Origin: a virus
Length of the DNA stretch: 50,863 nt
Virus record (IMG/VR): IMGVR_UViG_3300021061_000022
Coordinates: 1-50,863 of that record
Strand: one strand, 5' to 3'
This document shows, one piece after another, positions 2,511-35,997 of this stretch. The notes under the pieces are model-generated. The model saw only the letters and a list, made by a program, of their open reading frames with translations. It had not been told where the DNA came from and did not search any database. The position numbers were made by a program, and so were the translations under genes. Numbering within the stretch: the first letter of the stretch is position 1; the number at the start of each line of letters is the position of its first letter.

Positions 2511-2721
2511 GGATTCCTCGATCGGGCAGCGCCGGAGGGCGGCCCGTGCGCAGCGCGGGCACATGCCGCGCCGCGGTAATGAGAACGTTGCGGAAGGCTT
2601 CATCGGGGACGTCCCCCGCGAGGCCGGTGAACTGCCAGCCGACCGTCTGGTTGTCGTAGGCCGTCAGCGTGATCTCGAAGACGGGATGCGGTCCCAGCAG
2701 CGGCGAGGGGCCACCGTTCAT
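2497..2721 (-). CDS. Small hypothetical protein after oxygenase
   Basis: Encodes 74 residues. ATG overlaps the oxygenase stop (ATGA), which fixes the start. The first 50 residues (PHPVFEITLTAYDNQTVGW, then a helix DEAFRNVLITAARHVPAL) look like a small alpha/beta domain; the tail is Pro/Arg-rich. No family recognised. Confidence 0.7.
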   Translation of the reverse strand: MNGGPSPLLGPHPVFEITLTAYDNQTVGWQFTGLAGDVPDEAFRNVLITAARHVPALRTGRPPALPDRGIHERG

Positions 2722-3482
2722 CGCACGAGCCTCCCCACCCACTTCCGGAACCGGGCGACGTACTCCCACGGCCGGGGCCGGTAGTCCGTCGTCGGCACGA
2801 AGGGGTCGTCCTCGCGTCGCGGCCGGTAGTAGTAGAGGGCGAGCGACGCGCGGCTCGGCCCGCGGAACGGATCGGGGTGGCCGTGGAAGCTGGTCGCGTG
2901 CGTCTCGAACAGGACCGCGCGATTGAACGTCGGCGCGATCGACCGGACGCACTGCCGAACCTTCGCGTCCCACAGTTCCAGATCACCGCCCCACGCGACG
3001 TCCCAGTCCTCGGTGAGGTAGATCAGGAGATTCAGGGCCCGCTGCTGGCCCGTCTTCGGATGCCGGGAGAAGTCGGCGTGGACGTCGAGGAACCCGCCGG
3101 GCGGCGAGCAGTGCAGCCCACCGCCGAACAGCGCGTCGTCGCCCGCGACGTCACGCTGGCCGGTGACCCGCTCAAGCCAGCGGAGGAACGACGGGGCGTG
3201 GAGCGCGTCGATGACGTCCCGCGCGACCGGCCCCACGCGTGTCAGCGTCAACTTGTGCGAATGCCGGTGAATGCGCCGCGTCCAGCGTGGGGACGACGGA
3301 GACGGGATCTCGCGGGCGAGGGCGCGGGCCACCGCCGGAGCGAGGAACCCGTCCATGACGACGTGGCCGTACGGGCGGGCGGCGGCGAACGTGCGGCGGA
3401 GTGCGGCCCACCGGAGATCGGAACGGAAGGCAGAGAACGGCGCGGCCACCACGGACTCGATGACCGCGCCGTTCGCCGTCAT
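2718..3482 (-). CDS. 2-oxoglutarate/Fe(II)-dependent oxygenase
   Basis: Encodes 254 residues with the double-stranded beta-helix signature of prolyl-4-hydroxylase-type enzymes: iron ligands HxD at H135 and D137 (FLDVHADF), a distal histidine at about H200 (SFHGHPDPF) and Arg 211 for 2-oxoglutarate (SRASLALYYY). LIYLTEDW and GGDLELWD match the fold's strands. Known members hydroxylate protein side chains or small substrates. The gene lies just downstream of a beta-helix protein and the major capsid gene in the late operon, so a virion protein or a surface glycan may be the substrate; that is inference. Preceded by CC after the upstream TAA. Confidence 0.9.
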   Translation of the reverse strand: MTANGAVIESVVAAPFSAFRSDLRWAALRRTFAAARPYGHVVMDGFLAPAVARALAREIPSPSSPRWTRRIHRHSHKLTLTRVGPVARDVIDALHAPSFLRWLERVTGQRDVAGDDALFGGGLHCSPPGGFLDVHADFSRHPKTGQQRALNLLIYLTEDWDVAWGGDLELWDAKVRQCVRSIAPTFNRAVLFETHATSFHGHPDPFRGPSRASLALYYYRPRREDDPFVPTTDYRPRPWEYVARFRKWVGRLVR

Positions 3483-3484
3483 GG

Positions 3485-4474
3485 TTAGTTGATCGCCGTC
3501 AGCGCCGTGCCGGAGCCTTCCTGGTAGCACTCCGTCAGCTGCGCTTCGTTGGCGCCGAAGTTGTCCACGACGAGGCCCGAAGTGATGACGCCCGTCCGCG
3601 GGAACAGACACCGGACGATGTGAACGCCATCCGCGACCGAGGCGGTCGTGCCGTCGATGCAGGAACCCATCGTGCCGGAGGTGATCCACACCGAGTTCTC
3701 GATCACGCAGCCGTCCGCGGCGGTCGCCACGGCGAAGGGCGTGGCCCACGCACCCGACGTGTTGTGGAACAGGCAGTTCTCGACGTGGACCATTGCCGTC
3801 GCGATGTCCACCGCCCGCCCCTGCGCGCCCTCGGCCACGAACGTGCAGTCCTTGATGTAAGCCGTGGCGAGCGTGGTCGTGTTGGAGTGCTTCGCGATGG
3901 AGGCCCCGCCCGCGGTCGAGGAGTCGGCCCGGTAGCCGAAGTCGATCCCGTAGGTGCCGACCGAGGGGTCCGGCGTCTGGAGATCGAAGTAGCAGCGGTA
4001 GAAGATCGTGCTGTTCGGGCTGGCGTTGCGGAACTGCACGGCCGAGAACCCCGAGGTCGGTGTGATCGTCAGCCACGAGACGAGGATGTTGTTCGCCTCG
4101 ATGGAGAGCGTCGCCGTGCTCGTCCCCGTGCTCGCGAGGACCGACTTCGGCTTGAACGCGCGCACGGCGAAGTCGGCGTACGGGTTGTGGACACCGACGA
4201 CCGTGAGCCCGGCCTTCGTGAGCCGCTGCACCGCGGTGACGGTGTGCGTGCCCTCGAGCATCACGGCGACGTCGCCGGCATTCGCGGAGGCCAGCGCGTT
4301 GAAGCGGTTCAGGTCCCGGATCGCCCGCTCGGGCGAGAGACCGTCGTTGTCGTTGCTGGCCGAGTACGTGCGCCCCTCGATCGTGTAGCTGTCCGAGGGG
4401 GCGATGTAGAACACGCGCCCCGTCTGCACGACCGGCAGGCCGTACAGCGAGCCGTATTTCGTGAGGTAGCTCAT
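3485..4474 (-). CDS. Right-handed beta-helix protein (pectate-lyase-like fold)
   Basis: Encodes 329 residues. The N-terminus has the phage-type phrase FYIAPSDSYT then DGLSPERAIRDLNRFNAL, typical of repeating-strand proteins that start with a 'SDNNDGLSP' cap. After this come regularly spaced turns with Val/Ile/Asn ladders (IFYRCYFD, AYIKDCTFVAEG, VHVENCLFHNT, CVIENSVWITSG, VHIVRCLF), about 25-30 residues per coil. Such folds occur in capsid-associated or tailspike depolymerases. It lies next to the major capsid gene rather than with the fibre, so a head-bound adhesin or glycan-binding role is also possible. Confidence 0.87.
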   Translation of the reverse strand: MSYLTKYGSLYGLPVVQTGRVFYIAPSDSYTIEGRTYSASNDNDGLSPERAIRDLNRFNALASANAGDVAVMLEGTHTVTAVQRLTKAGLTVVGVHNPYADFAVRAFKPKSVLASTGTSTATLSIEANNILVSWLTITPTSGFSAVQFRNASPNSTIFYRCYFDLQTPDPSVGTYGIDFGYRADSSTAGGASIAKHSNTTTLATAYIKDCTFVAEGAQGRAVDIATAMVHVENCLFHNTSGAWATPFAVATAADGCVIENSVWITSGTMGSCIDGTTASVADGVHIVRCLFPRTGVITSGLVVDNFGANEAQLTECYQEGSGTALTAIN

Positions 4475-4604: not shown

Positions 4605-4667
4605 TCACTTGCCGCGCTTCTGCTTGACGTTCTTCGACTTGGCCCAGGTGAACGGGGGCTTCTTCAT
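4605..4667 (-). CDS. 20-residue Lys-rich peptide after capsid gene
   Basis: An ATG overlapping the capsid stop (TGATG) opens a 20-codon frame beginning MKKPPFTWAKSK and ending KRGK, with seven lysines and one arginine. Too short to prove, but its coupling to the capsid gene and extreme basic charge favour expression. About 130 non-coding bases follow before the beta-helix gene. Confidence 0.5.
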   Translation of the reverse strand: MKKPPFTWAKSKNVKQKRGK

Positions 4668-5596
4668 CACGACACCTGGTTGCCGAAGATCCAGCGCCAG
4701 TCCGACCACCCGAGCGAGATGCGGCAGTACTTCCGCCACTTCGCCACGAGCGTGTCGAAGTCCTCCACCATCGCGAGCGGCTGATCCTCCCGCGTGATCC
4801 AGTGGAGGAACTGCTTCATGTAGGTCGTGTCGATCATGAACCAGTCGTTCGCATCGGTCAGGCGGATCCACCCGCCCGGCATCAGCGACGTCATCACGCC
4901 GTGCAGCGCGTTGATGTTGTTGTTCGGCGTGTCCAGCTTGCCGGTCGTGCGGATGATCTCCTCCGCCGGCTCCCAGAGGTCGATGGGGTACAGCAGCGCG
5001 GTGCAGTCCACCTCGAAGGGGTGCCCGCGGTCGTCCTTGAACTTCCGCGCGAGCACCCGCGCCGCCGACACGCTGACGGCCGAGAGGGACGCCGTGCCGA
5101 GGTTGTCGAAGCCGGACGCGGTGGAGACGCCCGGCGCCCGCGTGGTGTGCGAGTTCGAGCAGAGCGGCTGGCCGTCACCGCCCGTCTGCCACGTGTTGTC
5201 GTTGTGGAAGGCGTTGACGAACGTCTGGGCCGCCCACTTCTGGCGGGTCCGGGCGTACGCCATGCCGAGGCCGCGCGGCTTGCCGTCGATGATGCTGTAG
5301 AGCTCGTCCTGGGCGAGCGTGTGCTCGACCGAGAAGCCCTTCGCGTACTGCACGTGCGTGAGGGTCGTGTCGTACCCCTCGTACACGTCGTCGTACTTCA
5401 CGGACCCGGTGAAGGTCTCAAAGTCGCCGAACGTGCCGACCTGCGAGAACCGGGTCTGGTCCTTCATCGGCCCGAGGTCGCCGTCCGTGTTGTAGAACGT
5501 CGGCACGGCGTCCGGGATCTGCTTGTAGGCGTCGTTGAAGATCCGCTTGATCCGCGGATCGAGGAGGTCGGGGAACTGACCGGGGATCAGAGTCAT
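4667..5596 (-). CDS. Major capsid protein
   Basis: Encodes 309 residues, resembling the Mu gpT-type major head subunit: a helical start (DPRIKRIFNDAYKQIPDAVP), a central segment FGDFETFTGSVKYDDVYEGY, and a C-terminal half with LLYPIDLWEPAEEI and FMIDTTYMKQFLHWITRED before an aromatic end. Size and place directly after scaffold and decoration genes fit. AGGAGA lies four bases before the ATG. It would form the shell of an HK97-fold icosahedral head. Confidence 0.88.
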   Translation of the reverse strand: MTLIPGQFPDLLDPRIKRIFNDAYKQIPDAVPTFYNTDGDLGPMKDQTRFSQVGTFGDFETFTGSVKYDDVYEGYDTTLTHVQYAKGFSVEHTLAQDELYSIIDGKPRGLGMAYARTRQKWAAQTFVNAFHNDNTWQTGGDGQPLCSNSHTTRAPGVSTASGFDNLGTASLSAVSVSAARVLARKFKDDRGHPFEVDCTALLYPIDLWEPAEEIIRTTGKLDTPNNNINALHGVMTSLMPGGWIRLTDANDWFMIDTTYMKQFLHWITREDQPLAMVEDFDTLVAKWRKYCRISLGWSDWRWIFGNQVS

Positions 5597-6319: not shown

Positions 6320-6362
6320 CGCGGATCTTTCTGCCGTGGACTCTCAGGCCCCATCGGCTGGC

Positions 6363-6707
6363 CTAACGGATTCGCGCCCAGCGACCTTTGCCGGGAATCC
6401 GGCGCTCGTCGCCGACCGCATCGTGAAAAGCGGAGTGAATGAACGCCGCGGCGTGGAGGCTGTGCTTGCCGCAGTCGTCGCAGAAGGCGTTCATCGTGGT
6501 TCGTCGGTAGAGCTCGTAGCCGACCTTCCGCGGGTTGAACTTCGACACGCAGAAGTCGCAGAGGATGACGCACTGCCGGAGGCCGATCTTGTCCGCGATC
6601 CATCCCCCGGCGGTGCGCCCGCTTGGACGGCCGTGCCCGCGAATGACGGCGGCGGCGGCGCGGCGCTGCGCGGTGTCGGGTTTGGGAACGTGGAGGGTGA
6701 CCGTCAT
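6363..6707 (-). CDS. Zinc-binding hypothetical protein in capsid block
   Basis: Encodes 114 residues with Cys pairs CVILCDFC and CDDC about 24 residues apart, followed by H83 and H89 (KHSLHAAAFIHSAF), consistent with one zinc site. The ATG overlaps the scaffold stop by four bases (ATGA). A zinc protein between scaffold and decoration genes is unusual; its role is unknown. Confidence 0.72.
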   Translation of the reverse strand: MTVTLHVPKPDTAQRRAAAAVIRGHGRPSGRTAGGWIADKIGLRQCVILCDFCVSKFNPRKVGYELYRRTTMNAFCDDCGKHSLHAAAFIHSAFHDAVGDERRIPGKGRWARIR

Positions 6708-7468
6708 CCGTGACGGCGCTTCCAGCGGTCGAGGTTCACGTAGGGCAGTTCTGCCTTCCGCTGCTCGACCGAATAGCCCAGCCGGTCCCAGTGGTCCTTG
6801 AGGGGCTGGGGAACGTCCTTGAACGGATCGGCCTTCGGGGGCACGCGACCGCCGCCCCCTCGGGTCTCGACCGTGGTATCGGCGTGTTCCCGGGCGTACT
6901 CCCGGGTTTTCGTCGCATCGGCCAGACGATCGAGCGTGCCGAACGCCTGGCGCAGGGCCTGACGCTGCACGCGGGGATCACGAACGTCCCAGCCCATCTC
7001 CTCGGCGATCTCCGAGGCGATGCGGGACGCTTTCAGGAACTCCTTGGAGGACGGGTCCGCCAGGGCCGGGATGCGGTCGAGGTACTGATTCACTTCCGTG
7101 GTGGCCGAGGCGCGCTTCTGTCGCAGATCGAGGTCGTTGACCGTCTGGAGACGCGCCTGCTCCGCCCGCTGCCACGCCAGCTGATCCGCCATCTGCGCGG
7201 GGCTGATGCGTCCCGCATCGACAGCCTGCTGGAGCTGTTCAGCGGTGTAGAACTGCGGCTTGGGGGCCGGCGGCTCCTTCGGGGCTTCCTGCTGGCGGGC
7301 GAGTTGGGCGCGAAGCGCGGCAGCTTCCGCCTTGAGCTCGTTCTTCTCGCGCACGACGTCCTCGAAGCGGACCCCTCCGGGCTCGAGCGGATGTTTCCGC
7401 TCCTCCGGGGTGGGGACCTCGGGAACCTCGGGCGTTTCGACTTCCGGAGTTTCGATCTCGCCTGCCAT
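6704..7468 (-). CDS. Capsid scaffolding protein
   Basis: Encodes 254 residues: an acidic Pro/Glu/Val repeat region (ETPEVETPEVPEVPTPEER), a coiled coil (VREKNELKAEAAALRAQLA), then helical segments and a basic C-terminus (YVNLDRWKRRHG). This domain order and the place two genes upstream of the capsid gene match scaffolds that bind coat protein through a basic tail. It is the first gene after a strong terminator, so it needs its own promoter or read-through. Confidence 0.8.
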   Translation of the reverse strand: MAGEIETPEVETPEVPEVPTPEERKHPLEPGGVRFEDVVREKNELKAEAAALRAQLARQQEAPKEPPAPKPQFYTAEQLQQAVDAGRISPAQMADQLAWQRAEQARLQTVNDLDLRQKRASATTEVNQYLDRIPALADPSSKEFLKASRIASEIAEEMGWDVRDPRVQRQALRQAFGTLDRLADATKTREYAREHADTTVETRGGGGRVPPKADPFKDVPQPLKDHWDRLGYSVEQRKAELPYVNLDRWKRRHG

Positions 7469-7619: not shown

Positions 7620-7685
7620 CTCCGTGTCGAGGTCGCCCGCTTCTATGTGACTTCGGTGTTACATGGTCAGAATCCTAGCACACTG

Positions 7686-7868
7686 TCATTTCCGCACATA
7701 GGCGCTTGCGTAGACGTGCGGGGTGTCCCCCGCGATCACGCGCCCGTGCTCCTTGAAGTCGTAGGACTCAATCCGGCCTTCGTTGACGTGCAGCACGATG
7801 TCCCCGGTGTGCTTGGCGGCCAGCCACGCCCGGATCTTGACGTCGAGCTCCGCGGCGGTAACCTTCAC
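7686..7868 (-). CDS. Small hypothetical protein before terminator
   Basis: Encodes 60 residues from GTG (GTGA overlap with the upstream stop). Sequence begins VKVTAAELDVKIRAWLAAK, a helix, then strands IVLHVNEGRIESYDFKEHG and ends HVYASAYVRK. It is the last gene before the 7.6 kb terminator. Unknown function. Confidence 0.72.
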   Translation of the reverse strand: MKVTAAELDVKIRAWLAAKHTGDIVLHVNEGRIESYDFKEHGRVIAGDTPHVYASAYVRK

Positions 7869-8008
7869 TCCGCCGGCTCCGTGACCAGCGCTCGCCACCA
7901 GCACACAAGACACTGACCCGGGCCGAACTCCTCTTCCAGCGAGCATGACTCACCATGCGGATGGTAAAGTTCCCCGAACACGTCGCGGCCCGCCTCGTCG
8001 ATCGTCAC
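7865..8008 (-). CDS. 47-residue zinc-knuckle-like protein
   Basis: A frame of 47 codons starting at GTG, joined by GTGA overlaps at both ends. It contains LYHPHGESC and a CLVCWW pair (H-x-H, C, CxxC), a possible zinc site. The double coupling and Cys/His pattern support a real gene. Confidence 0.62.
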   Translation of the reverse strand: MTIDEAGRDVFGELYHPHGESCSLEEEFGPGQCLVCWWRALVTEPAE

Positions 8009-8346
8009 TCCTGGCCCGCCTTGACGACCTCCGGGAGCGTGGTGAGCGCCGCGTCCAGCCCCGCCAGCCAGCCGGCGCAGTTGGCGATGTCCTCCCGGAG
8101 GAAGCGCATCTCGTCCGCGGTGACGCCCCGCCCGCGCGTCAGCCGGTGCTCGAGCCCCTTGAGCCGGCCCTGCTCACGTTCGCGGAGTTTGGTCAGCGCG
8201 TCCTGGAGGATGGCGAAGCCCGGGTGATTGATCGCCTGCGCGGCGCGCTCGGCCGAAGCCCGCTGCTCGTTCGTGACGGGCGGGCGTGGGGCTGTGGGCT
8301 GCTTCTCGTCGAGGTACTTCTGCCAGTCGTCCAGCGTGATCGTCAT
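8005..8346 (-). CDS. Helical hypothetical protein
   Basis: Encodes 113 residues from an ATG that overlaps the O-antigen ligase-like gene's stop (ATGA). A conserved-looking opening (ITLDDWQKYLDEKQP) is followed by two long helices (AILQDALTKLREREQGRL, ADEMRFLREDIANCAGWL). Short helical proteins of this type sit near portal genes in podovirus-like genomes. Function unknown. Confidence 0.75.
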   Translation of the reverse strand: MTITLDDWQKYLDEKQPTAPRPPVTNEQRASAERAAQAINHPGFAILQDALTKLREREQGRLKGLEHRLTRGRGVTADEMRFLREDIANCAGWLAGLDAALTTLPEVVKAGQE

Positions 8347-9404
8347 GCCACCCTCCGGGCCAGCATCACGGCGACCATGAGGGCCACCGTGGCCAGCGTG
8401 GCCACGCGCGTTGGGAAGTTCGCCAGACACGCCACGCCGAGCGCCAGCGCGGCGCCCGTCAGCGGGTCGGACAGGCCCAGGGCTGGTCCGTAGCGGTACG
8501 CCCACCAGCCGAGGACGAGGACACCGAGCAGTCCGTACTCGTAGAACATCTCGAGGTAGTCGTTGTGCGCCTCGTTGTAGACCTCGCCCGTCATCACGTT
8601 CTCCGACCGGACCCACGTCCGGGCGCGCTGCTGGAAGGCACCGTGGCCGGCGCCCACGAGGATCTGCGACCACGAGGCCACGCATTTTCGGGCCGTCACT
8701 TCCCAGATGCGGCGCCGGGCGAACACCGAGTCGCCGAGGTGACGGAACTTCCACCCGCGAGGATGGTGGCCGATCTTGACCATCCGGTAGCCCATCGCGC
8801 CGAGGATGACCGGCAGGGCGTAGAGCCACGCTTCAGGAATCACCCAGAGGACGCCAGCGGACGCGGCGGCGGTCGCCACGCTGGAGCGCGAGAGGAACAC
8901 GCCGACCGCGTAGACGAGCGCGAGCGGGACGCCGTAGTCCGTCAGGAACCCGAGCGGGATCAGGAGGGCGAGGTAGATGCCGAGGCCCGTCCGGTGGCCG
9001 AACGTCCCGTGGATGTTCGTCCCGTCGAGGAACACCGGCAGCTTGAAGTACTGGCAGACGCCGAGGGCGGTCTGGACGACGCCGAACACGAGGAGCGCGG
9101 TGAGCCAGAGGTCGATCGCCCACTGCGGCGCCGTCGTGCCGAGGAGGACGCCCATTGCGACGAACGGCCAGAGGAGTCCGCCTGAGATGCGGGGCCAGCC
9201 CTTGATCCACCACCAGACGCAGCCGGCGGCGGCGAGGACGCCGAGGCCCGGATCGACCCAGCCGGCGAACAGCGTGCCCGTCAGCATCCGGTAGAGGTCG
9301 CTCGGGACGTCACGGGTGGAGAACGGGCGACCGGGAAAGAGGGCGGCGAGGCCGAACGCGGCGATCGGCAGGAGGACGAGAACGATGAGCCAGGCGAGCG
9401 TCAT
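8343..9404 (-). CDS. O-antigen ligase / Wzy-like polymerase membrane protein
   Basis: Encodes 353 residues with about ten hydrophobic segments. It carries the hallmarks of the Wzy_C/WaaL family: GTFGHRTGLGIYLAL (133-147), a Ser-Arg-Ser segment (about 172-174), GAGHGAF (251-257) at the start of the large periplasmic loop, and AHNDYLE (279-285) followed by E289 and GLLG. Family members join or polymerise O-antigen on lipid A-core at the periplasmic face. The gene sits between portal and capsid genes, a place normally held by virion genes. It could change host surface glycan to block superinfection or aid release. Start ATG at 9404, only six bases from the divergent gene. Confidence 0.87.
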   Translation of the reverse strand: MTLAWLIVLVLLPIAAFGLAALFPGRPFSTRDVPSDLYRMLTGTLFAGWVDPGLGVLAAAGCVWWWIKGWPRISGGLLWPFVAMGVLLGTTAPQWAIDLWLTALLVFGVVQTALGVCQYFKLPVFLDGTNIHGTFGHRTGLGIYLALLIPLGFLTDYGVPLALVYAVGVFLSRSSVATAAASAGVLWVIPEAWLYALPVILGAMGYRMVKIGHHPRGWKFRHLGDSVFARRRIWEVTARKCVASWSQILVGAGHGAFQQRARTWVRSENVMTGEVYNEAHNDYLEMFYEYGLLGVLVLGWWAYRYGPALGLSDPLTGAALALGVACLANFPTRVATLATVALMVAVMLARRVA

Positions 9405-9410
9405 ATACTC

Positions 9411-9689
9411 GTGGGCGTGAAGTGCCGCTTCTGCCAAGACGACGAGGGCCACCCGATCACCGCGGCCTGCTTCAACGCCCAAGCCGAGTCGGTGCTGGCG
9501 ACGCTCTCCGTCGTCGCGCTGGCACCGATGAACGCGGTTCCGCTGTCGTGGTCCGTGATGGCAGATTCAGGGGAGTCGGGGCGCTGGATCGAGTTCCACG
9601 AGGGGCGGATCATCGACGCCCAGCCGCACGATGACGGCGTAATCGTCACGGTCGAGAACGGCAAGCAGTACATCATCCGTCCGACGTAG
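9411..9689 (+). CDS. Plus-strand small protein with CxxC, likely accessory (moron) gene
   Basis: Encodes 92 residues (GTG at 9411; a second GTG at 9417 is equally possible). It starts with KCRFCQDDEGHPITAACF, a possible zinc site, and ends with a strand-rich unit (WIEFHEGRIIDAQPHDDGV, then VTVENGKQYIIRP). It is one of only four plus-strand genes, divergent from the O-antigen ligase-like gene and overlapping the portal gene end by 17 bases. TATACT at 9403-9408 could be a -10 box for a leaderless message. Isolated reversed genes like this are often expressed in lysogens. Confidence 0.66.
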   Translation: MGVKCRFCQDDEGHPITAACFNAQAESVLATLSVVALAPMNAVPLSWSVMADSGESGRWIEFHEGRIIDAQPHDDGVIVTVENGKQYIIRPT

Positions 9690-12060
9690 CCCCCGCCAGT
9701 TCATCACTCGACGGGGCTTCCGTCTGCATCCCCGGCGCCTCTCCCGCGGACGGCTGGCTCCCCTGCCCCTGTCCGCTGTTGCCGAGCGACGACGAGAAGT
9801 CGGCCGCCGCCTGCGCGAGCTGCTGCGCCTTCATCTGCTCCTGAATCAGGATGCTCACCTGCTGGAGATAGGCACGGAACAGCCCGGCCTGCGGCGCCGT
9901 CAGGAATCCGAAGTTGTCCGACTGCATGAACTTCTGAAGGTTCATCAGGTGCTCGGTCGGCTCCTCAAGCGGCGTGCCCACCGGCAGGGCGTTCGTCTCC
10001 ATGATCGCGAGGATGGCCTCCTCGGCGGTGATCTTCGGCCCCGAGGTCACGCCGAGCGGCTTCTTGATGTACCGCGAGGGATCGAGCGTCGCCGCTTTGA
10101 TGAGGTCGGTCTGCCAGTTGTAGTACTGCTCGGCGCTGACCGTGCCGACCTGGAAGGACAGCGGGTTGAACACCGCCATGCCGATCGCCTGGAGCGCCTG
10201 CTGCACGAGCCCCTTGTTCGTGTTCAGCAGCGTCGGCTGCCAGTCCCACGCGATCGGGATGGCGACGTCGAGCGGGTCCGCGATCTCGCGATACGGGTCC
10301 TCGTGCTCCTCCAGTTGCCCCGAGGCGAGGTACTGCTTGCGCTTCTTGAGGAACCGCCCGTTCAGGAGGTGGAACTGCTCCCACACCTGCCGGAGCCCCA
10401 TGAACAGCCTGCGAAGAATTTGCTCCGGCATCGCCGCGCCCTGCTGGAGGATCGCCATCGTCGTCCCGAGCGTGCGGAGCGCCGACGCCTTGCCCTGCGG
10501 CACCTGACCACGCTGGATCGGGCCGATCTGCGTCACGTCGTCCATGAACTGCTTGGCGAGGCCCACCATGTTGAACCCGAACGTCTGGTCCGCGTGCGGC
10601 AGCGTCGGGAAGAACACGTCCTGCTGCGGGTTGTCGATCGGGTAGAGATCGCCCGGCCACAGCTTGATCGCTTCGGGCTTCATGCCACTGGACGCCCGGT
10701 AGAACCCGAACGGACGGTTGGCGAGGTCGCCGTTGTCCGTCATCTGGTTCAACATGACGTGCAGGAAGTCGTGCAGCCCCTCCATCACCTCGAGGAGCGA
10801 GATGCCGTAGATCTGGCCCTCGACGGGGATGTAACACGTATGCGACATGGGCCGGGTCAGCGGGATGCCGGGGGAGAGCTCCGTCAGGTACTTCGCGCGG
10901 ATCAGGGTTTCGGATTCGCGGAGCACCCAGAAGATCACTTCTTCCTGGAGGCCGTCGTCATCGACGTCCCATCCCCCGAACCACTGGATCAGCGTGAGCC
11001 ACTGCTTGTCGTAGTCGTGGGGGCCGGACGGCTGGATGCCGGCGGCGTCTTCCTTCTGCTGCTTCGGCCCGTCGTCCGTCTCCCCGCCGTCGGTCGGGAC
11101 GCGCCCCTCGGCCGCCGCCAGGATCTGCTTCCAGTCGTCGTCGGTGATGAGGTCGTAGATGCCGTCTTTCTCACCGCGCTTGAGTTCATCGACGGTGATG
11201 CGGCTCATGCGCGCGACCCACGGGGCGCCCTTCGGATTGTGCGGCGTGACGGGCTGCGGGTTCTCGCAGCGCACCGGCACCACGACGTCCTCGAGGTCGT
11301 CCACGATGGCGGTGGGGCCATCGAACGTCGTCGCGTCCCAGACGGCGACGAGCTCCAGGCGTTCCTCGTCCTTCTCCCAGACGGTGAAGTCCACTTCCGT
11401 CCGCTGCTGGTCGTCGTTGACGAAGGCGCCCGCCCAGACGGTGCCGTGTTCGTTCTTCGCGACGAGTTCGGTGACCTGGGGGAACAGGTCAGGGATCGCC
11501 ACGGCCATCGATTCGATCAGCGGCCGGTCGTCCTTGGGCAGGACCCGAACGTCGGTGAGTCGCGAAGAATGCTTGACCCACGGCTGGAAGCTGAAGACCG
11601 CGGGGTCCTTGCAGAACTGCGCGATGTACTTCTGGATGAACTGCTCGCCGTTGCCTTCCACGAACAGCTGGTAGTCGATCAGCTGATTGGCGGCCTCGGC
11701 CTTGTCGCGGAGATCCTTGCGCACCTTCGGCTCGAACGGCGGGCGAATGCCCATGACGGCGTTGAACAGGCCGGCCTCGACGCGCAGCTCGTTCGCCATC
11801 ATCGCGGGATAGTGGTGATTGGAGCAGCCGTCCCACGGCGGGGACTCGCGCTGCGTCCAGCCGCGGAACTTGGCGTAGCGTTCCATGCGCTTGTCGAGCC
11901 ACGTCTGGCGCTCGCCCATCGCGTCGTCCACTCGCTCGATGACGCCCTGCACGACGTCGGTGGCGTCGACCGACATGCGACGCTTGCGAAGCCTCGGGCC
12001 GGGCTCGGGCTTCTCGTCGGGAGCAGCGAGGTTCAGCGGGTTCGCGTAGTCGTCGGCCAT
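9673..12060 (-). CDS. Portal protein
   Basis: Encodes 795 residues. Podovirus-type portal features: an acidic/basic N-terminus, SPPWDGCSNHHYPAMMANEL, long helical middle with GQIYGISLLEVMEGLHDFLH, DLYPIDNPQQDVFFP, and a Gln-rich C-terminus (QQVSILIQEQMKAQQLAQ). Length is typical of the 700-800-residue portals of this group. It forms the twelve-fold ring for DNA entry at the head vertex and works with the large terminase 900 bases upstream. ATG overlaps the previous stop as TGATG. Confidence 0.9.
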   Translation of the reverse strand: MADDYANPLNLAAPDEKPEPGPRLRKRRMSVDATDVVQGVIERVDDAMGERQTWLDKRMERYAKFRGWTQRESPPWDGCSNHHYPAMMANELRVEAGLFNAVMGIRPPFEPKVRKDLRDKAEAANQLIDYQLFVEGNGEQFIQKYIAQFCKDPAVFSFQPWVKHSSRLTDVRVLPKDDRPLIESMAVAIPDLFPQVTELVAKNEHGTVWAGAFVNDDQQRTEVDFTVWEKDEERLELVAVWDATTFDGPTAIVDDLEDVVVPVRCENPQPVTPHNPKGAPWVARMSRITVDELKRGEKDGIYDLITDDDWKQILAAAEGRVPTDGGETDDGPKQQKEDAAGIQPSGPHDYDKQWLTLIQWFGGWDVDDDGLQEEVIFWVLRESETLIRAKYLTELSPGIPLTRPMSHTCYIPVEGQIYGISLLEVMEGLHDFLHVMLNQMTDNGDLANRPFGFYRASSGMKPEAIKLWPGDLYPIDNPQQDVFFPTLPHADQTFGFNMVGLAKQFMDDVTQIGPIQRGQVPQGKASALRTLGTTMAILQQGAAMPEQILRRLFMGLRQVWEQFHLLNGRFLKKRKQYLASGQLEEHEDPYREIADPLDVAIPIAWDWQPTLLNTNKGLVQQALQAIGMAVFNPLSFQVGTVSAEQYYNWQTDLIKAATLDPSRYIKKPLGVTSGPKITAEEAILAIMETNALPVGTPLEEPTEHLMNLQKFMQSDNFGFLTAPQAGLFRAYLQQVSILIQEQMKAQQLAQAAADFSSSLGNSGQGQGSQPSAGEAPGMQTEAPSSDELAGATSDG

Positions 12061-12663: not shown

Positions 12664-12971
12664 CGGAACACCCTCGTCATGGCTTCTCCGCAGCAGGACG
12701 GCGTGTGCCCCGTGAACGGCGGGCTGCCATCGCACGGCTCGAACCCGTTGAAGTAATGGCCGGGCTGGTGCCGGAACTCGTGGAGGATGACGCGGTAGGC
12801 GCGCCCCCCACACTTCCGGCACGTCAGCCACGCATCGTGTTCGTGCCGCCCGGAACAGTGCTGGGCGCACGTAGGACCTTCCGGCGGCAGCGGAAGCGTG
12901 CGCGGCGCCGTCCCGGGCAGCACGAGGCGTTGCTTCTGCGCGAAGATCTGGTCCCAGCGTTCGTCGCTCAT
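12660..12971 (-). CDS. Zinc-binding protein downstream of large terminase
   Basis: Encodes 103 residues with several Cys/His clusters: CAQHCSGRHEHD, TCRKCGGRAYRV, HEFRHQPGHYF and PSCCGEAM. The spacing allows two zinc sites. The ATG overlaps the terminase stop (ATGA), so its dose is tied to terminase. HEFRH fits HExxH, but its position among many Cys makes a structural site more likely. Confidence 0.75.
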   Translation of the reverse strand: MSDERWDQIFAQKQRLVLPGTAPRTLPLPPEGPTCAQHCSGRHEHDAWLTCRKCGGRAYRVILHEFRHQPGHYFNGFEPCDGSPPFTGHTPSCCGEAMTRVFR

Positions 12972-14662
12972 CCGCGTCTCCGATGCTGGAACACCATCCC
13001 GCGCGTGTAGCCGGTGAACGACGGCCGGTCGAGCGCGAAGTAGCGGACGAGATCCGGGAAGTCCTTGTGACGGTCCCTAACCTTCTCCTTCGGCTCCTTG
13101 TCGCCGCCGCGCGTCCACTCGTCCCACGTCCAGTGGGTCATCCCGTAGATGAACTTCGGGCACGTGTTGAACACCGCGAACCGTGGACGGCGGGTCCGGG
13201 GATCGGGACGCAGGAGTTCGTTGACCTGCGAGATGCCGGCGTTGATCTCGTCGTTCGCGAGATCGCAGCGGATGCCTTCTTGGTCGTACTCCTTGCGGAT
13301 CGTCCACCCGCGCTGCATCCGGTCGTTCGTCTCGGTGGCGATGTTCGGGTCCATCAACCGCTTCACCGGACGCATCCGATGGCGCTCCTCGAAGGAGCGG
13401 ATTTCGCGCGCGACGTCCTTCGCGGTGCCCGTCGCCTCGAGCTCCCCGACCATGAACACGTCGTCTGACGGCGCCACCGCGAACCAGCCGATCGCGTCTG
13501 CCTTTCGAGGATGCGGGTCGATCACCATGACGACGGGCCAGCCGGCGGGAATCGGGAACGGCTCGATCACGTGCGAGAACTGCGAGAGATCGTCGCCCTT
13601 GCACGTCGGGCACGACCCGTCGATGCCGAGCACGCGCTTCTGGCAGCGGTAGCACCACGTCGCGTAGGTGCGCTCGAACATCGAGTACACGACGCCCGAG
13701 AGATGGATGAACCGGCCGTAGAGTCGAACGGCCCGCTGCTCGTCGGTCAGTCGTTCCGCGATCGCCTGCACGTCCTCCGGAGAGAGGATCGTGTTGCGCT
13801 CGGTGAACAACTGGATGGTGTCGATCTCCGGGTGCTGGTTCGGCCCCGGGAGTCCTGGTTCATAGATCTCGTCGAAGAACCACGCGGCATCGACCTGGGC
13901 GGACCCGGCTTCGTCCGGGGGCGTGAACGCCGTGTAGAGCTGGCCGCGGACGTCGAGCGTGCGTAGCCGGTTTTCCCGGTAGATGTCCGAGGGTGGCAAT
14001 TCGTCGTGGCCGACCCAGTGCAGCGAGGACCCCGCGAACGCCGAGAGGTCCTGGTCGTAGGACATCAGCTGAATCGTGGACGTGCCGCTGACGGAGTTGA
14101 TGGAGCCGTCCGCCCCCCGCCAGTACGAGTCCACGCTGACGTGGAGGGTCCGATAGCGTTCGGAGTACGCCTTTTCCCACGACCCGCCGGCCAGACAGTG
14201 CCGGGGAATCCATCCCCAGTGACCGCGGCCGTCGTTCGGGTCGCCGACGCCGTTCCACTGATCCCAGCGCAGCTTCGGCTTGATGACGGGCTCGATCGTG
14301 TCCGTCAGCGAGTTGCACACGAGGCGGGCGCGGATCGGGGCGCGGATCTTCTCGCGCGGATACGTCCCCATCAGAGACACCGGGATGTGGCCCGTCGCCT
14401 GAATCGCCAGTTCCGCCAGCATCGTGTCCGTCTTGCTCGAGCGGTTGCCGCCGACGATGGCGACCTCGCGCTTCATGCTCGTGTGCGCCTTGAGCGCGTC
14501 GGGATTGCGGACCTGGTAGTAGGCGAGCTGCGTGCCCTTGCGGTCCTCCTGCAAGGCCTGGGTGGTCTGCATCAGGACCGTGCGGAACCACGCCGGATTC
14601 TCCCGCGCCCTCGCGATCAGCTCGTCCTGCGAGAGCTCGGAGAGATCCTTGAGGTCGATCAC
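12968..14662 (-). CDS. Terminase large subunit with inserted zinc ribbon
   Basis: Encodes 564 residues from a GTG (GTGA overlap). Walker A is GGNRSSKT (71-78), Walker B is WVGHDE (216-221). A zinc ribbon (CYRC ... CPTC, about residues 325-345) lies between ATPase and nuclease parts, then VVMVIDPHPRKADA begins the RNase H-like nuclease, with MDPNIATETNDRM and DFPDLVRYFALDRP near the end. It is the motor that cuts and pumps DNA into the head with the small subunit two genes upstream. The zinc insertion fits the genome's wealth of zinc ribbons. Confidence 0.92.
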   Translation of the reverse strand: MIDLKDLSELSQDELIARARENPAWFRTVLMQTTQALQEDRKGTQLAYYQVRNPDALKAHTSMKREVAIVGGNRSSKTDTMLAELAIQATGHIPVSLMGTYPREKIRAPIRARLVCNSLTDTIEPVIKPKLRWDQWNGVGDPNDGRGHWGWIPRHCLAGGSWEKAYSERYRTLHVSVDSYWRGADGSINSVSGTSTIQLMSYDQDLSAFAGSSLHWVGHDELPPSDIYRENRLRTLDVRGQLYTAFTPPDEAGSAQVDAAWFFDEIYEPGLPGPNQHPEIDTIQLFTERNTILSPEDVQAIAERLTDEQRAVRLYGRFIHLSGVVYSMFERTYATWCYRCQKRVLGIDGSCPTCKGDDLSQFSHVIEPFPIPAGWPVVMVIDPHPRKADAIGWFAVAPSDDVFMVGELEATGTAKDVAREIRSFEERHRMRPVKRLMDPNIATETNDRMQRGWTIRKEYDQEGIRCDLANDEINAGISQVNELLRPDPRTRRPRFAVFNTCPKFIYGMTHWTWDEWTRGGDKEPKEKVRDRHKDFPDLVRYFALDRPSFTGYTRGMVFQHRRRG

Positions 14663-15936
14663 GCGGGCTGGTGCTTCAACTGTCCGAGGCGGCGACAGAC
14701 CGCCATCCCGACCCGCATCAGCCCCTTGCCGACCACCGAGTCCCCGTGGGCCATCTCGCGCGTCCACGGCTCCGCCACGACCCACACGAGGCGGGTGACG
14801 ACCGAGGACCGGCGCATCGCGCGCACGACGGTCGGCGCCCAGCGGTAGTAGCCGGCGAGGACGACGGGATCGACCGTGCGGCCGAACGCCTCGTCCGCCT
14901 TCCACGTCGCCTCATCGAGGTAGCCCTGGCGGTAGAGCTCCGTGCAGATGACGGTGGCCCCGCCGGCACCTCCCCCTCCGCCGCCCGCGGCCCCCCCGTC
15001 GCTCTCGTCGCCGCTGCCGCTCGGGCCCGCCGTCCCGGTCCCCGAAGACGTCCCACCGCCATCCGTTTCGTCGCCGCTCGGTGCCGGCCCGGTGCCGGTC
15101 GGCCCCATCCCCGTGTCTTCGCTGAAGGTGACCGGCGCGGTGGTCGTCGTGTCCGGCATCCCGCCGCGGACCCCTGACGAGAACAAGCCCGGCTGACCCT
15201 GAAGGCCCGTCACGGCGGTGGTCGGCGCCGCGGTGAACGACGGGTTCGACAGATCCCCGAAGGTCGGCGACGGGATGCCGGACTCACTCAGCGGCCCCGT
15301 CCCGAGCGCCCCGACCGCGATCCCGCTGCTGTTCGGCGTCGAGGTGGTCGTCGGAGACGTCGTGCCGCTCAGGAACCCCTCCAGCCCGTTCACGACGCCT
15401 TGCAGCCCGCTCACCGTCGCCTGGGACGCCGGGGGGGCCGGCCCGAACGCCCCGAGGCCGAAGTTCGCCAGGCTCGCGGCCAGCCCCAGTCCCGGCACCG
15501 CGGCGTTCGCGATCGTCCCGACGAGGCCGTTCGCCACCGTCGAGGGAATGCCGAACTGCGCGCCGAGCTGGGCCGCCGGGGTCGCGGACGCGATCGTCCC
15601 CAGATCCCCGAGCAGACCGCCGGAGTTCCCGTGCCCGCCGGAGACCCCGGAGCCCGCGCCCGGCGCCGATGGAGCGCCCGCTTCTCCGGTTGGCCCGCCG
15701 GGGGTCCCTGGCGAATTGATCTGCCCGGTTACGGATTCGGCGTTGCCGATCGCCCCCTCAAAGAACCCGATGCCGGGGTTGTACGGGGCCGGGGACGCCG
15801 CCGGCATGAACGTGGACGGCTGCCCCGGAAACGCCGTGTCCGACCCCTGGACGCCCGGCAGCGTCACCGGCTGGCCTGACGGACGCCCGGGATAGGCAAT
15901 GTCCAGCCCGGCCAGACTCAGCGGAGCCGTCAGCAT
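14659..15936 (-). CDS. Low-complexity protein with C-terminal conserved domain, between terminase genes
   Basis: Encodes 425 residues. About 320 residues are Gly/Pro/Ser/Thr/Ala-rich, with collagen-like stretches (NSPGTPGG, GDESDGGAAGGGGGG). The last 105 residues form a compact domain starting ICTELYRQGYLDEATWKADE and containing LAGYYRWAPTVVRAMRRS, a pattern I associate with phage proteins that follow long flexible linkers. A helix-turn region near 120-170 (AAQLGAQFGIPSTVANGLV) is more hydrophobic. Sits between small and large terminase; virion-structural role suspected, not proven. Confidence 0.8.
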   Translation of the reverse strand: MLTAPLSLAGLDIAYPGRPSGQPVTLPGVQGSDTAFPGQPSTFMPAASPAPYNPGIGFFEGAIGNAESVTGQINSPGTPGGPTGEAGAPSAPGAGSGVSGGHGNSGGLLGDLGTIASATPAAQLGAQFGIPSTVANGLVGTIANAAVPGLGLAASLANFGLGAFGPAPPASQATVSGLQGVVNGLEGFLSGTTSPTTTSTPNSSGIAVGALGTGPLSESGIPSPTFGDLSNPSFTAAPTTAVTGLQGQPGLFSSGVRGGMPDTTTTAPVTFSEDTGMGPTGTGPAPSGDETDGGGTSSGTGTAGPSGSGDESDGGAAGGGGGGAGGATVICTELYRQGYLDEATWKADEAFGRTVDPVVLAGYYRWAPTVVRAMRRSSVVTRLVWVVAEPWTREMAHGDSVVGKGLMRVGMAVCRRLGQLKHQPA

Positions 15937-18964: not shown

Positions 18965-20283
18965 CGGTCCAGCACGGTCCGCATGGCGGTGATCCACGAG
19001 TCGAGACGCTGGCGCTGCGCGCGGGAGCCGGCCTTGAACGCGGACGCGCCGATCGTCCCGCCGCCGAGATGGACGTAGAACGGAATCGCCCGGTCATCGC
19101 ACGCAACGTCGCAGGTATGCCCTCTGAAGGCGGCCTGATACAGCATGGTCGCCCGCCAGCCTGGTTCAACACTCTCGGCAACGTCGTACTCCGGCATCTT
19201 CGGCGCGAGATTCATCGTGGCAAACGTAGCCACATCGAACAGCGTCCCGGCGGAATGACCGCGCTGGCTCCGCCGGCTCACGATCGCCGCCGCGGGCAAT
19301 GGCTGCCGCAGGAGATAGGACAGCCAGCCGGCGCGGACGGGCAGCGCGTCGTCGTGCATGATGAAAACGTGCGAATATCCCGCAGCCCCGGCCCGATCGA
19401 GCGCGCCGCGCAGCATGCGGAGCGCGAGCGCGTTAGCCTCGCCGCCGCGTTCGTCCCACGGCCCGTGATCCAGCAGGAACACGTCGTGGGGGACGTCCTG
19501 CGTGAACCGCGCTATCGCATCGCGGGCGAGGTTCGCCAGCGCGCGCTCGCCTGAAGACGGGATCAGGATGGCGACACGCCTCGCCGCGGCCTTGATTTGC
19601 AGCGCCTCCAGCATGGCCGTAAGCGTGTCGTTCATCGCCACGTCGCACGCGCGGCCGGCAGCCGCAGCGGCCCTGGCGGCCGTCCCGAAGGATGCAGAGG
19701 TCGCGGCCGTGGCCGCGGCCGACGTGACGGCGGCGTTAATGGCCATGAAGACGGCGAGGGCGGGGTCAGGCGAGGTGACCACGTTCGCCGCCGCGATGGC
19801 CGCGTGAGCGGTTGCCGACCAGTAGCGTTCATAAAACGTCCTCCGTGCGGCCCACGCTCCGTGGGCCGCCGCGTCGAGATCCACCCGACTAGCCTCGCCA
19901 TGCCGGTACGCCTCCGCGGCCCGCAACACCTCATACGCGCGTCGGTCCACCGTGAGGCCGCGCGCCGCAGCCCGGTCCAGCGCCTGCGTCCCCACCACCA
20001 GCGCGAACGCGCGCAGCGTATCCGTGCAGTCGGCGGCCCAGAGCACCCGGCGCTCGCTCGCGCACACCTTGTCCTCGTCGCGCTCGATCGCCCCTGACAG
20101 TTCCACGCGGGACACGACGCACGGCATTCCGGGCGGCGCATAGCGCAGCGCATCCAGGGCGCGCTCGCTGGCGTGTAGACCGCGCGCGCCCAAGGCTAGG
20201 GGCGGCAGCACGGTGTACGTAGCGACGTCGAGCGGCTGGCCATCGCGGAGTTTCCAGTTCGCGGCGAAATGCCAGCCGATCAT
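18961..20283 (-). CDS. Fusion: phage GLHAS-type domain plus GT-A-like glycosyltransferase
   Basis: Encodes 440 residues. Residues 1-150 resemble a phage-restricted domain (WHFAANWKLRDGQPL ... ARGLHASERALDALRYAP ... VSRVELSGAI ... ASERRVLWAADCT), close in style to DUF7666-like proteins. An Ala-rich helical linker (about 150-230) follows. Residues 235-440 look like a GT-A family 2-type transferase: VAILIPSSGERALANLARDA, a helix, HVFIMHDDALPVRAGWLSYL with HDD in the DxD position, and a late GYxx-like acceptor loop. ATGA-coupled to the GT4 gene upstream. I infer a sugar transfer to host surface glycan. The fusion is unusual. Confidence 0.77.
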   Translation of the reverse strand: MIGWHFAANWKLRDGQPLDVATYTVLPPLALGARGLHASERALDALRYAPPGMPCVVSRVELSGAIERDEDKVCASERRVLWAADCTDTLRAFALVVGTQALDRAAARGLTVDRRAYEVLRAAEAYRHGEASRVDLDAAAHGAWAARRTFYERYWSATAHAAIAAANVVTSPDPALAVFMAINAAVTSAAATAATSASFGTAARAAAAAGRACDVAMNDTLTAMLEALQIKAAARRVAILIPSSGERALANLARDAIARFTQDVPHDVFLLDHGPWDERGGEANALALRMLRGALDRAGAAGYSHVFIMHDDALPVRAGWLSYLLRQPLPAAAIVSRRSQRGHSAGTLFDVATFATMNLAPKMPEYDVAESVEPGWRATMLYQAAFRGHTCDVACDDRAIPFYVHLGGGTIGASAFKAGSRAQRQRLDSWITAMRTVLDR

Positions 20284-21353
20284 CCGACGAGCTCCGTGTA
20301 GACCGCCATCGTCCCGCGCACGCACCGCTCCCACCGGAAGTGGCGGTCGATCCGCTCGCGGGCCGCCTCGCCGAACAGGCGCCGCACCGGAGCGTGGTCG
20401 ATCAGGAGTCGCAGCGCACGCACATAGTCGTCCTTCGTCCGGCAGACGAATCCCGCGTCGCCGACGAGCTCCGGTAGTGACCCCGCGTCCGAGGTCACAA
20501 CCGGCAGCCCGGAGGACATGGCTTCCCCGACCGCTAGGCCGAAACCCTCCATCGACGACGGGAACACGAAGATGTCCGCGCGCTGATACCACGCCGGCTT
20601 GTCCGCCTCCGGGATGTACCCGCTGCACGAGAAACCTTGCGCCTCGAGCATGGCGCGGTCCGGGCCGTCGCCCGCGATCACGAGCGACGCGCTCGGGCGC
20701 TCGACCGCGCGCCACACGTCGAGAAGCAGGCCTAGGTTCTTTCTCGGCTTCAACCCGCCGAGGAACAGGACGCGGACTTTTCCGTCATGCGGGACCTGCC
20801 GCGGCGTGAAGCGGCGATCGATCCCGTAAGGAACGACCCGCACGTGATCCGTCCTGAACCCTTCCGCCGCCATCTGGCGCCGAGCGAACTCGCTGCCGAC
20901 GATCACCCGGTCCACCAAGCGGACGACTTGCCGCTCGACCGGCCACGGCCCCGCGTCAAGGTGGTGGTGATGGGCCACGATGGGAACGGACCACCCATAG
21001 CGGCGCTTCGCGATCAAGCACGCCGGCCCCATGAACTTGAGGCTGTGGACGCGGAGCACATCGAACGGGTGGAGATGCCGGAGGGCCCGGGGAACGACGA
21101 ACGGGGCGATCGTCCAGTGCAGTCCTCGCGCAACCGGAAATCGCGTCACAGCCCGCCCGAGGCTCGCAGGATGCGGCTTCCCGTGGGCCAGCAGGATCTT
21201 CTGCTGGGCTGGCAGGCGCGTCAGCAGATCGACCTCGTAGCGTTCGCCCCCGGAGTTCGTTTCCGGGTCGAGACCACAGTGGGGGGAACAGACGACTATC
21301 AGGGGGGTCCCTCCGGCCGTCCGCCGCGCCCGTCGTCGTCTTCGTCCGTCCAC
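20280..21353 (-). CDS. GT4-family glycosyltransferase
   Basis: Encodes up to 357 residues. Classic GT-B retaining transferase signs: SPHCGLDPETNSGGERYEVD at the acceptor side, VIVGSEFARRQMA, VVPYGIDRRFTP, LFLGGLKPRKNLGLLLDV, VIAGDGPDRAML, and the donor EGFGLAVGEAMSSGLPVV (E269 and E277) binding nucleotide-sugar. GT4 enzymes build LPS and capsule chains at the cytoplasmic face. Start is uncertain: GTG at 21353 lacks a ribosome site, while a CTG at 21302 has GGAGGG six bases upstream and a four-base CTGA overlap. Middle gene of the glycan cluster. Confidence 0.88.
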   Translation of the reverse strand: MDGRRRRRARRTAGGTPLIVVCSPHCGLDPETNSGGERYEVDLLTRLPAQQKILLAHGKPHPASLGRAVTRFPVARGLHWTIAPFVVPRALRHLHPFDVLRVHSLKFMGPACLIAKRRYGWSVPIVAHHHHLDAGPWPVERQVVRLVDRVIVGSEFARRQMAAEGFRTDHVRVVPYGIDRRFTPRQVPHDGKVRVLFLGGLKPRKNLGLLLDVWRAVERPSASLVIAGDGPDRAMLEAQGFSCSGYIPEADKPAWYQRADIFVFPSSMEGFGLAVGEAMSSGLPVVTSDAGSLPELVGDAGFVCRTKDDYVRALRLLIDHAPVRRLFGEAARERIDRHFRWERCVRGTMAVYTELVG

Positions 21354-34346: not shown

Positions 34347-34567
34347 CACTGCGCCTCCCGGAGCGCCGCGACGCCCGCACACCGCGGACACCGTCCCCCG
34401 TACCCGTGCCCTGCCGGGAGACGGTGACACCGGAGGCAGAGGCGGGTGTTCTCGCTACTCTGTCGAACTACACTCAGCGGGGGGTCCGCGCGCTCCGTAA
34501 CCCCGCGAAATGATGCACACGGCTGAGTAATCCTCTTCTCGGATCGGACGTCGCTAGTGCCCGTCAT
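34346..34567 (-). CDS. Zinc-ribbon protein downstream of integrase
   Basis: Encodes 73 residues; the ATG lies inside the integrase end. C-terminal LCLRCHRLPAGHGYGGRCPR then C forms a zinc ribbon. The N-terminal 40 residues are unstructured and have composition unlike the rest, so a shorter form from an internal GTG is possible. The integrase 3' region is a common attP place, but I see no clear core site. Confidence 0.62.
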   Translation of the reverse strand: MTGTSDVRSEKRITQPCASFRGVTERADPPLSVVRQSSENTRLCLRCHRLPAGHGYGGRCPRCAGVAALREAQ

Positions 34568-35606
34568 TCCTCACCTTTTGATCGTTCGATTGCTCTGTCT
34601 GCGGCCCGTTACCCTGCGGGACAGTGAAGTCGTTACCGAGGTACCGATCCAGGCCGACGTACTGCTGCTGGCGGGCGGCGTGGAGCTCGTCCGGGACGAT
34701 GTGGTCGTACGCCTGAATCGAGTGCGGATTGGCGTGGCCCATCATCCGCGAGCGGATCGACGGGTCGATCCCACCCCGGCGCCGGACGACTTCCATCGTG
34801 TGCCGGATCGTGTGAGCCCCGACGCGGAACCGCGTGATGCCGGCGCGCTTCGCGATCGCCGTCGCCAGGTGGGTCAGGCTCGAGGTCGTCATTGCCTCGC
34901 CGCGGCTGTTCGTCAGCAGCGGCTGATCGGGATGCACCCGCCCCTCGTTCAGCATCGTCGTGTGCAGCATCTCCACGACGGACGGCGACACCGGGATGTC
35001 CAGCTTCCGGCGGTTGCGCCCCCGGCCCTTCACGACGACGGACAGGTAATAGAGGCCGTTCACGTCGTGGAGATCCCCGACCTTCGCGCGCGTCAGTTCC
35101 AGCGACCGCAGGCCGGTGTCCACGAGCAGGGCGCGGGCGTTGCGCTGCCACGGCTCCGTCAACTCGACCGCGAGGAACGCCGCGAGTTCCTTCGGGTAGA
35201 GGTACTTCCGCTCGCGCTTGACCGCCTGCGGCCACTCAAACGCGGCCGTCGGGTTCGTCGTCATGTACGGCTTGCCCGTCCGGCTGTTCTTGTGCTGCAT
35301 CCCGTACTTCGCCAGCGTGGACAGGGCGGCCAGCTTCGTGATGATGACGTTGATGCTGACCCCGAGTTTCGCCAGCTCCTCCGCGAACCCGAGGGCCGTG
35401 TCCTCGTTGAAGGACCGCACCTCGTCCCGGAGCCCCGCCGTCTTCGTCACGTAGTCCACGAATTGGCGCCACGTGCGCTCGTACGAGCGGATCGTCAGCG
35501 GCGAGTAGTCCTTGTAGGTGAGCAGATGGGTCGAGCAGGCTTTGTAGAGGTCGGTAATCATGGCGTCGGGGGCCTCCAGGCCGTACGGGATGCGAACCCG
35601 CGGCAT
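34554..35606 (-). CDS. int: Tyrosine-family site-specific integrase
   Basis: Encodes 350 residues. Catalytic set: R167 (TGLRSLELTR), Lys near 193/201 (VVKGRGRNRRKLDIP), HxxR at H265 and R268 (AHTIRHTME), H291 (MMGHANPHS) and Y300 (IQAYDHIV). The N-terminal 120 residues form a SAM-like core-binding domain (SPLTIRSYERTWRQFVDYV). GAGAGGGG lies six bases before the ATG at 35606; a GTG at 35648 with a GTGA overlap is the alternative start. Inserts the phage into, and with a helper removes it from, the host chromosome. Confidence 0.93.
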   Translation of the reverse strand: MPRVRIPYGLEAPDAMITDLYKACSTHLLTYKDYSPLTIRSYERTWRQFVDYVTKTAGLRDEVRSFNEDTALGFAEELAKLGVSINVIITKLAALSTLAKYGMQHKNSRTGKPYMTTNPTAAFEWPQAVKRERKYLYPKELAAFLAVELTEPWQRNARALLVDTGLRSLELTRAKVGDLHDVNGLYYLSVVVKGRGRNRRKLDIPVSPSVVEMLHTTMLNEGRVHPDQPLLTNSRGEAMTTSSLTHLATAIAKRAGITRFRVGAHTIRHTMEVVRRRGGIDPSIRSRMMGHANPHSIQAYDHIVPDELHAARQQQYVGLDRYLGNDFTVPQGNGPQTEQSNDQKVRNDGH

Positions 35607-35644
35607 GGTACCCCTCTCGCCCGGTTGCCGATTTACCAGCAGGC

Positions 35645-35848
35645 TCACGCCTGTCCCCTCATCCACCGCGCGAACGCCGCCACCTCTGCGTCGTCGGCAA
35701 CGTCGGCGGCCTTGTCGCCTGCCATCGCGGCGAACAGCGCGTGGACACTCTCCTCGGCGATCACACGCCGGCCGTCCTCGAGCACGTGGCACAGCACGTC
35801 CACGCCGAACAAGCGGAACGACGCCGACCGCACGGCCTGCGTGCTCAC
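35645..35848 (-). CDS. Small hypothetical protein upstream of integrase
   Basis: Encodes 67 residues from GTG (GTGA): SASFRLFGVDVLCHVLEDGR (strands) and ALFAAMAGDKAADVADDAEV then AAFARWMRGQA helix. May be an excision or regulatory partner by position only. Confidence 0.66.
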   Translation of the reverse strand: MSTQAVRSASFRLFGVDVLCHVLEDGRRVIAEESVHALFAAMAGDKAADVADDAEVAAFARWMRGQA

Positions 35849-35997
35849 GCCCGCCCCTTCCGCGCATCGCGCTCGCGCCGCCACACCTCGAGCGGGTCCG
35901 CCGTCCCGCGCGCAGCGCGCCCCTTCGGCCGCTGAAGCCCCGCCAGCGTCACCACGGAGCAACTGGCGAGGACGAACAGCAGGAGGAGGTACTTCAT
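35845..35997 (-). CDS. Small lipoprotein-like peptide
   Basis: Encodes 50 residues: MKYLLLLFVLASCSVVTLAG has a lysine, a hydrophobic core and an LASC lipobox, then a basic, Arg-rich body. Exported and lipid-anchored if the lipobox is used. ATGA-coupled. Confidence 0.64.
   Translation of the reverse strand: MKYLLLLFVLASCSVVTLAGLQRPKGRAARGTADPLEVWRRERDARKGRA

Follow-up and report, generated by a model that had tools for sequence, protein, structure and literature searches.

A Wzy_C/WaaL-class enzyme gene in the virion operon of an uncultured phage, and similarly placed genes in unrelated viruses that may alter the host cell surface during late infection

In the stretch of viral DNA analyzed here (the window, 50,863 nucleotides in all), a gene for a polytopic membrane protein assigned to the Wzy_C/WaaL class lies among the virion genes, on their strand. 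Because unrelated uncultured viruses, most of them without a detectable integrase, carry similarly placed genes, these enzymes may act in the late stage of infection to change the surface of the host. On balance, we lean toward reading the window gene as a swappable, late-expressed surface-glycan enzyme of the virion operon that limits superinfection or re-adsorption.

The preliminary description of this DNA proposed an O-antigen ligase-like gene at this place, and the 353-aa frame is indeed present (Table 1), with the codon-position GC content, biased at the third position, of a coding frame. Contigs L002 and L003, which come from two further metagenomes and are near-identical to each other, carry a homologue with 80% identity over all 353 residues at this same place, again between the portal gene and a scaffold-like gene. 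The differences between the window enzyme and this homologue fall mostly at third codon positions, with dN/dS ~0.16. The enzyme gene is real and is under selection to be kept. With the same junctions found in independent assemblies and 80% identity between them, the enzyme junction is therefore not an assembly accident.

Read along the minus strand, the gene order is terminase, portal, enzyme, 113-aa ORF, scaffold-like gene, capsid, 329-aa gene and 2OG-Fe(II) oxygenase, which bears out the proposed position between portal and scaffold-like gene; tail genes are found elsewhere in the window. Through the ATGA stop/start overlap, the enzyme gene is physically joined to the virion-block gene after it, so that translation of the two is coupled. 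The “adjacent divergent gene” of the preliminary description fares less well, its sequence being absent from the near relative L002, and it was dropped as a lysogen-expressed partner because the ORF is not conserved. In its position L002 has an unrelated 101-aa ORF (L002:7190-7495) that is co-directional with the Wzy_C gene and overlaps its start; the predicted product has cysteine pairs and, at the C-terminus, a membrane segment. The best full-length match of the window portal in the GenBank phage collection is only ~24% identical, and that collection includes no cultured phage close to the window lineage. Elsewhere, positions 17376-18419 (minus) encode a 347-aa protein that has by eye the look of a GT-B-type glycosyltransferase, and for which Pfam, PHROG, NCBIfam and PDB returned no convincing match.

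Table 1. Coordinates of the enzyme gene, its sequence features and other genes of the window
Feature	Position	Strand	Remarks
Wzy_C/WaaL-class polytopic membrane protein gene (assigned)	8343..9404	minus	ATG 9404, stop 8343, 353 aa
Wzy_C (PF04932) profile match, residues 164-298	8511..8915	minus	
R230 codon	8715..8717	minus	Arg in 38/38; aligned to R of RLKIW, WaaL 7TPG
GAGHGAF motif, residues 251-257	8634..8654	minus	first G in 38/38, next two in 37 and 35
AHNDYLE, residues 279-285, including H280	8550..8570	minus	aligned to HAHND of WaaL 7TPG
Large terminase	12968..14905	minus	phrog_2 5e-11
Portal protein, 795 aa	9673..12060	minus	SU10_portal 3e-17, phrog_1216
Divergent 92-aa ORF, portal-enzyme interval	9411..9689	plus	not conserved in L002
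113-aa ORF directly after enzyme	8005..8346	minus	ATG overlaps enzyme stop (ATGA)
Scaffold-like gene	6704..7468	minus	position and composition, no profile match; homologues in L079, L080
Major capsid protein	4667..5596	minus	phrog_4523/371/133
2OG-Fe(II) oxygenase, after capsid and a 329-aa gene	2718..3488	minus	PF13640 3.5e-18
GT4-family glycosyltransferase, elsewhere in phage	20280..21353	minus	PF00534 7e-29
Tyrosine integrase	34554..35867	minus	phrog_1 2.6e-27; PF00589

Searched as a single protein against Pfam-A, the enzyme matches one family, Wzy_C (PF04932), weakly, at E 7.4e-4 and 19.8 bits, below the curated cut-off of 31.7, and at E 8.9e-6 when searched as one genome. Single-protein searches of PHROGs, NCBIfam and PDB gave no match, ten viral relatives gave none in PHROGs either, and no Wzy_C_2 or PglL domain was reported in Pfam searches of the enzyme and its relatives. 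The relatives come from a DNA-level search with the pattern HNDYL[EQ]xxxExG, which found 66 viral stretches; a Wzy_C match is present in all 49 of the pattern-derived records checked. In an alignment of 38 proteins (37 viral or from the window, and one bacterial, L004), of which 31 match PF04932 at E 0.01, the residues R230, G251, H280, N281, D282, Y283, E289 and G291 are invariant; the search pattern itself fixed H, N, D, Y, E and G291, but it did not include R230 or the GAGHGAF glycines. Of these glycines, G253 is kept in 37 and G255 in 35 of the 38. The signature claimed earlier, GAGHGAF together with AHNDYLE, is present as described. Against solved structures, the 38-member profile, headed by the window enzyme, matches WaaL (7TPG, 1.9e-21) and an oligosaccharyltransferase (9RMK, 4.7e-15), and the former alignment pairs R230 and H280 with the arginine of RLKIW and the histidine of the HND in HAHND, respectively.

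An AlphaFold model built from the 38 sequences reaches pLDDT 84.4 and pTM 0.82 (two sequences only gave pLDDT 44, as opposed to 84 with 38). Hydropathy indicates nine strong membrane segments and the model at least ten long helices, in agreement with the roughly ten first supposed, and the model has one long non-hydrophobic stretch at about residues 213-283; a Wzy_C/WaaL profile match, below the curated cut-off for the single protein, and a many-helix topology with a large loop, on which the preliminary description had staked its assignment, were both found. A Foldseek search with the model ranks 7tpg_B best (probability 1.00, TM 0.55, E only 6.8e-3) and RodA second (0.96), WaaL and RodA being two GT-C members that are named together (PMC12800693); a viral structure library held no similar structure. 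By its modeled fold and two key residues, R230 and H280, the enzyme is thus assigned to the Wzy_C/WaaL class. Of the original label “O-antigen ligase”, the membrane enzyme of this class stands, and the choice of ligase over polymerase or another GT-C transferase is not established. We leave ligase and polymerase undivided because Wzy_C covers both and the fold cannot tell them apart. The transmembrane SRG/TRG arginine is found at its aligned column in 19 of the 38 proteins, the window enzyme having S175 there. The arginine two residues before, R173, was dropped as the conserved SRG arginine after this column was checked; it is lost in L079.

The WaaL of Cupriavidus metallidurans (7TPG/7TPJ) is the best match to the window enzyme by profile and by structure, with its arginine and its HND histidine aligned to R230 and H280 and a GxGxGxF motif common to both. 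Unlike this 413-aa protein, the window enzyme is viral, has 353 aa and a displaced SRG arginine, and is without a surrounding LPS gene cluster; median lengths are 365 aa for viral Wzy_C-class proteins and 468 for bacterial open frames. The PglL/PglS O-oligosaccharyltransferases, for which a catalytic histidine and arginines have been proposed (PMC12800693), are likewise of the GT-C class with a Wzy_C domain, but are longer, have an extra C-terminal domain and use protein acceptors. D3 Wzy-beta, WzyPh1 and VarioGold VG_p25 are phage-carried enzymes with a known or predicted action on surface glycan (PMC4815439, PMC9241936, PMC9658991), and D3 Wzy-beta and VG_p25 are, like the window enzyme, phage-encoded membrane enzymes of the Wzy_C kind, known or supposed to alter the host O-antigen. 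For WzyPh1, from an Acinetobacter baumannii prophage, a change of surface polysaccharide linkage was shown by glycan structure analysis (PMC9241936); we liken it by description, as a phage-encoded glycan enzyme, but its setting is a prophage and it is a Wzy polymerase. All three belong to temperate phages, and in VarioGold the structural genes run on one strand and the Wzy_C gene on the other, whereas the window enzyme is on the virion-gene strand. Keyword searches in an open-access subset of the literature found no paper that places the class within the virion operon of phages that do not integrate, which does not in itself prove novelty.

Among capsid-related phages the enzyme is optional. 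Only 4 of 80 loci (~5%) of the window's capsid relatives carry it, on the capsid strand and 0.7–1.6 kb after the capsid gene. Five phages with capsids 85–98% identical to the reference have enzymes that are 38–44% identical, with one close pair at 96%, the low enzyme identities going with capsids that are 85–88% identical; for L077 and L087, the capsids are 93% and the enzymes 42% identical, and the position of the enzyme differs. The window, L036 and L089/L079 form one enzyme lineage, at 39–45% identity, comparable with that of their other genes, and the closest lineage (L036, L089) keeps the enzyme inside the virion block, in the slot that the oxygenase occupies in the window (2718-3488). 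This slot, between genes of 330 aa and 271 aa of the virion block, is variable (window, L036, L079/L089, L091, L097, L102-L104, L106). Besides the Wzy_C enzyme and the 2OG-Fe(II) oxygenase of the window, it holds glycosyltransferase-2-like, sulfotransferase-like or oxygenase-like genes in other relatives, where most of the matches lie below curated cut-offs and the oxygenase-like call in L106 was made by eye. A gene that is optional, fast-diverging and shares a slot with sugar-modifying enzymes has the profile of a specificity gene, and not of a virion part.

The motif search recovered many Wzy_C-class genes in viral contigs, a sample gathered with one motif that gives no frequency among phages. 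Terminase and Wzy_C genes are on one strand in 21 of the 22 records holding both. Among records of at least 40 kb, window included, 11 of 13 have the enzyme on the terminase strand, 3.9–10.1 kb downstream; short contigs, in which the two genes are necessarily close, do not enter this count. If placement were uniform, such a result would have a probability of ~2e-6 to 7e-5, or 1e-4 to 2e-3 once four related records are merged (8 of 10 lineages). Adding a second terminase family, PF03237, contributed little to the comparison. On the gene maps, the Wzy_C gene is surrounded by portal, capsid and tail genes and often overlaps its predecessor; its start overlaps or nearly abuts the gene before it in L069-L071, L077, L078, L081 and L085. 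A six-frame search also turned up phrog_2 terminase frames with internal stops (TAG/TAA/TGA) in G049 (26803-28362), G026, G027 and G005, for which introns, changes of frame or genome recoding are possible reasons. The GenBank phage collection has no detectable relative of the enzyme (by tblastn) or of seven other family members; a scan of genome contigs yielded only one short bacterial match, and 398 genomes of the phylum of that match contained no relative. A tree sets the viral proteins apart from the bacterial ones, but it is weakly supported at its base and its viral set was chosen by motif, so we do not use it as proof of a viral clade.

The temperate precedents suggest another use, in which the gene is a lysogenic-conversion moron like the wzy-beta of D3 or epsilon15, expressed from the prophage to change the O-antigen linkage and exclude related phages, and located among the virion genes only incidentally. 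The window phage does have a tyrosine integrase, D3 Wzy-beta, the Acinetobacter prophage Wzy and VarioGold VG_p25 set the example (PMC4815439, PMC9241936, PMC9658991), and the gap of 268 bp between portal and enzyme (535 bp in L002) could hold a promoter. We nevertheless consider this unlikely, though deserving of attention. A scan for sigma-70-type promoters from 6300 to 10200, insensitive to other promoter types, found none, and around the enzyme there is no minus-strand terminator-like site, only a single one on the opposite strand. The stop/start coupling to the next virion-block gene also speaks against it, as does the VarioGold arrangement, in which the gene opposes the structural genes. 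Moreover, the same class occurs in virion blocks of records without an integrase: among 20 records of at least 38 kb, some of which may be incomplete, PF00589 is found in one, namely the window, and a resolvase in one. This rarity in carrier records counts against explaining the pattern in general by lysogenic conversion. The idea of lysogen expression via the divergent neighbor finds no support either, there being no sigma-70-like promoter, no conserved ORF and, in most of the class, no detectable integrase. For the integrase-bearing window phage itself, both lytic and lysogenic use of the enzyme are possible. In L077 (G021), the 176-aa frame that immediately precedes the terminase contains a strong serine resolvase domain (1088-1489), which is unusual at this location.

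Three further explanations appear less probable. The protein might be a competitive decoy that ties up or uses up undecaprenyl-linked glycan and makes nothing useful from it, so that the host ligase, polymerase or wall synthesis runs short of substrate and the receptor is lost or lysis made easier; its compactness relative to the bacterial frames and the lack of the SRG arginine at its column in half of the alignment (19 of 38) would fit, but the conserved R230, H280 and glycine motif and the low dN/dS favor catalysis, and we regard a decoy as improbable. Slightly less probable still is a PglL/PglS-like transfer of O-linked or other glycan to a periplasmic or surface protein, for which 9RMK, the second-best profile match, can be cited; WaaL matches better in both sequence and structure, and the Pfam searches reported no Wzy_C_2 or PglL domain. 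A neutral bacterial hitchhiker or an assembly chimera would accord with an enzyme present in only ~5% of capsid-related loci, and is very improbable, being largely refuted by conservation: the junctions recur across independent assemblies at 80% identity, dN/dS is 0.16, and the class returns in unrelated phages at similar places.

Under the late-expressed surface-glycan reading, which we prefer, the gene product would be a GT-C-type membrane glycosyltransferase of the Wzy_C/WaaL class, encoded by exchangeable virion-operon cargo that is probably transcribed with the late genes. From the inner membrane, the enzyme would use undecaprenyl-diphosphate-linked host glycan on the periplasmic side, by way of R230 and H280, and would ligate or polymerize it differently from the host enzyme. 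The outermost glycan would then be altered in the last part of the infection, and possibly also in the lysogen of the window phage, with less adsorption of competing phages and fewer progeny lost to already infected cells or debris as the presumed benefits. Control of superinfection or re-adsorption is the most reasonable role for the putative enzyme, with the counterpoint that the surface glycan may change too slowly to have any effect in so brief a late phase. More tentatively, we propose that in many integrase-less phages rapidly diversifying Wzy_C/WaaL-class enzymes of the virion operon rewrite host glycans before lysis, blocking progeny re-binding and the entry of rivals.

O-antigen polymerase genes are already known as cargo of temperate phages that changes the lysogen. 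The same enzyme class in the virion operons of many uncultured phages, most of them without a detectable integrase, suggests that glycans are rewritten in the lytic cycle too. If true, this would be a widespread lytic counterpart of O-antigen lysogenic conversion. It makes testable the notion that progeny are protected by glycan remodeling as well as by receptor-destroying depolymerases, and it opens a diverse group of compact GT-C enzymes to study.
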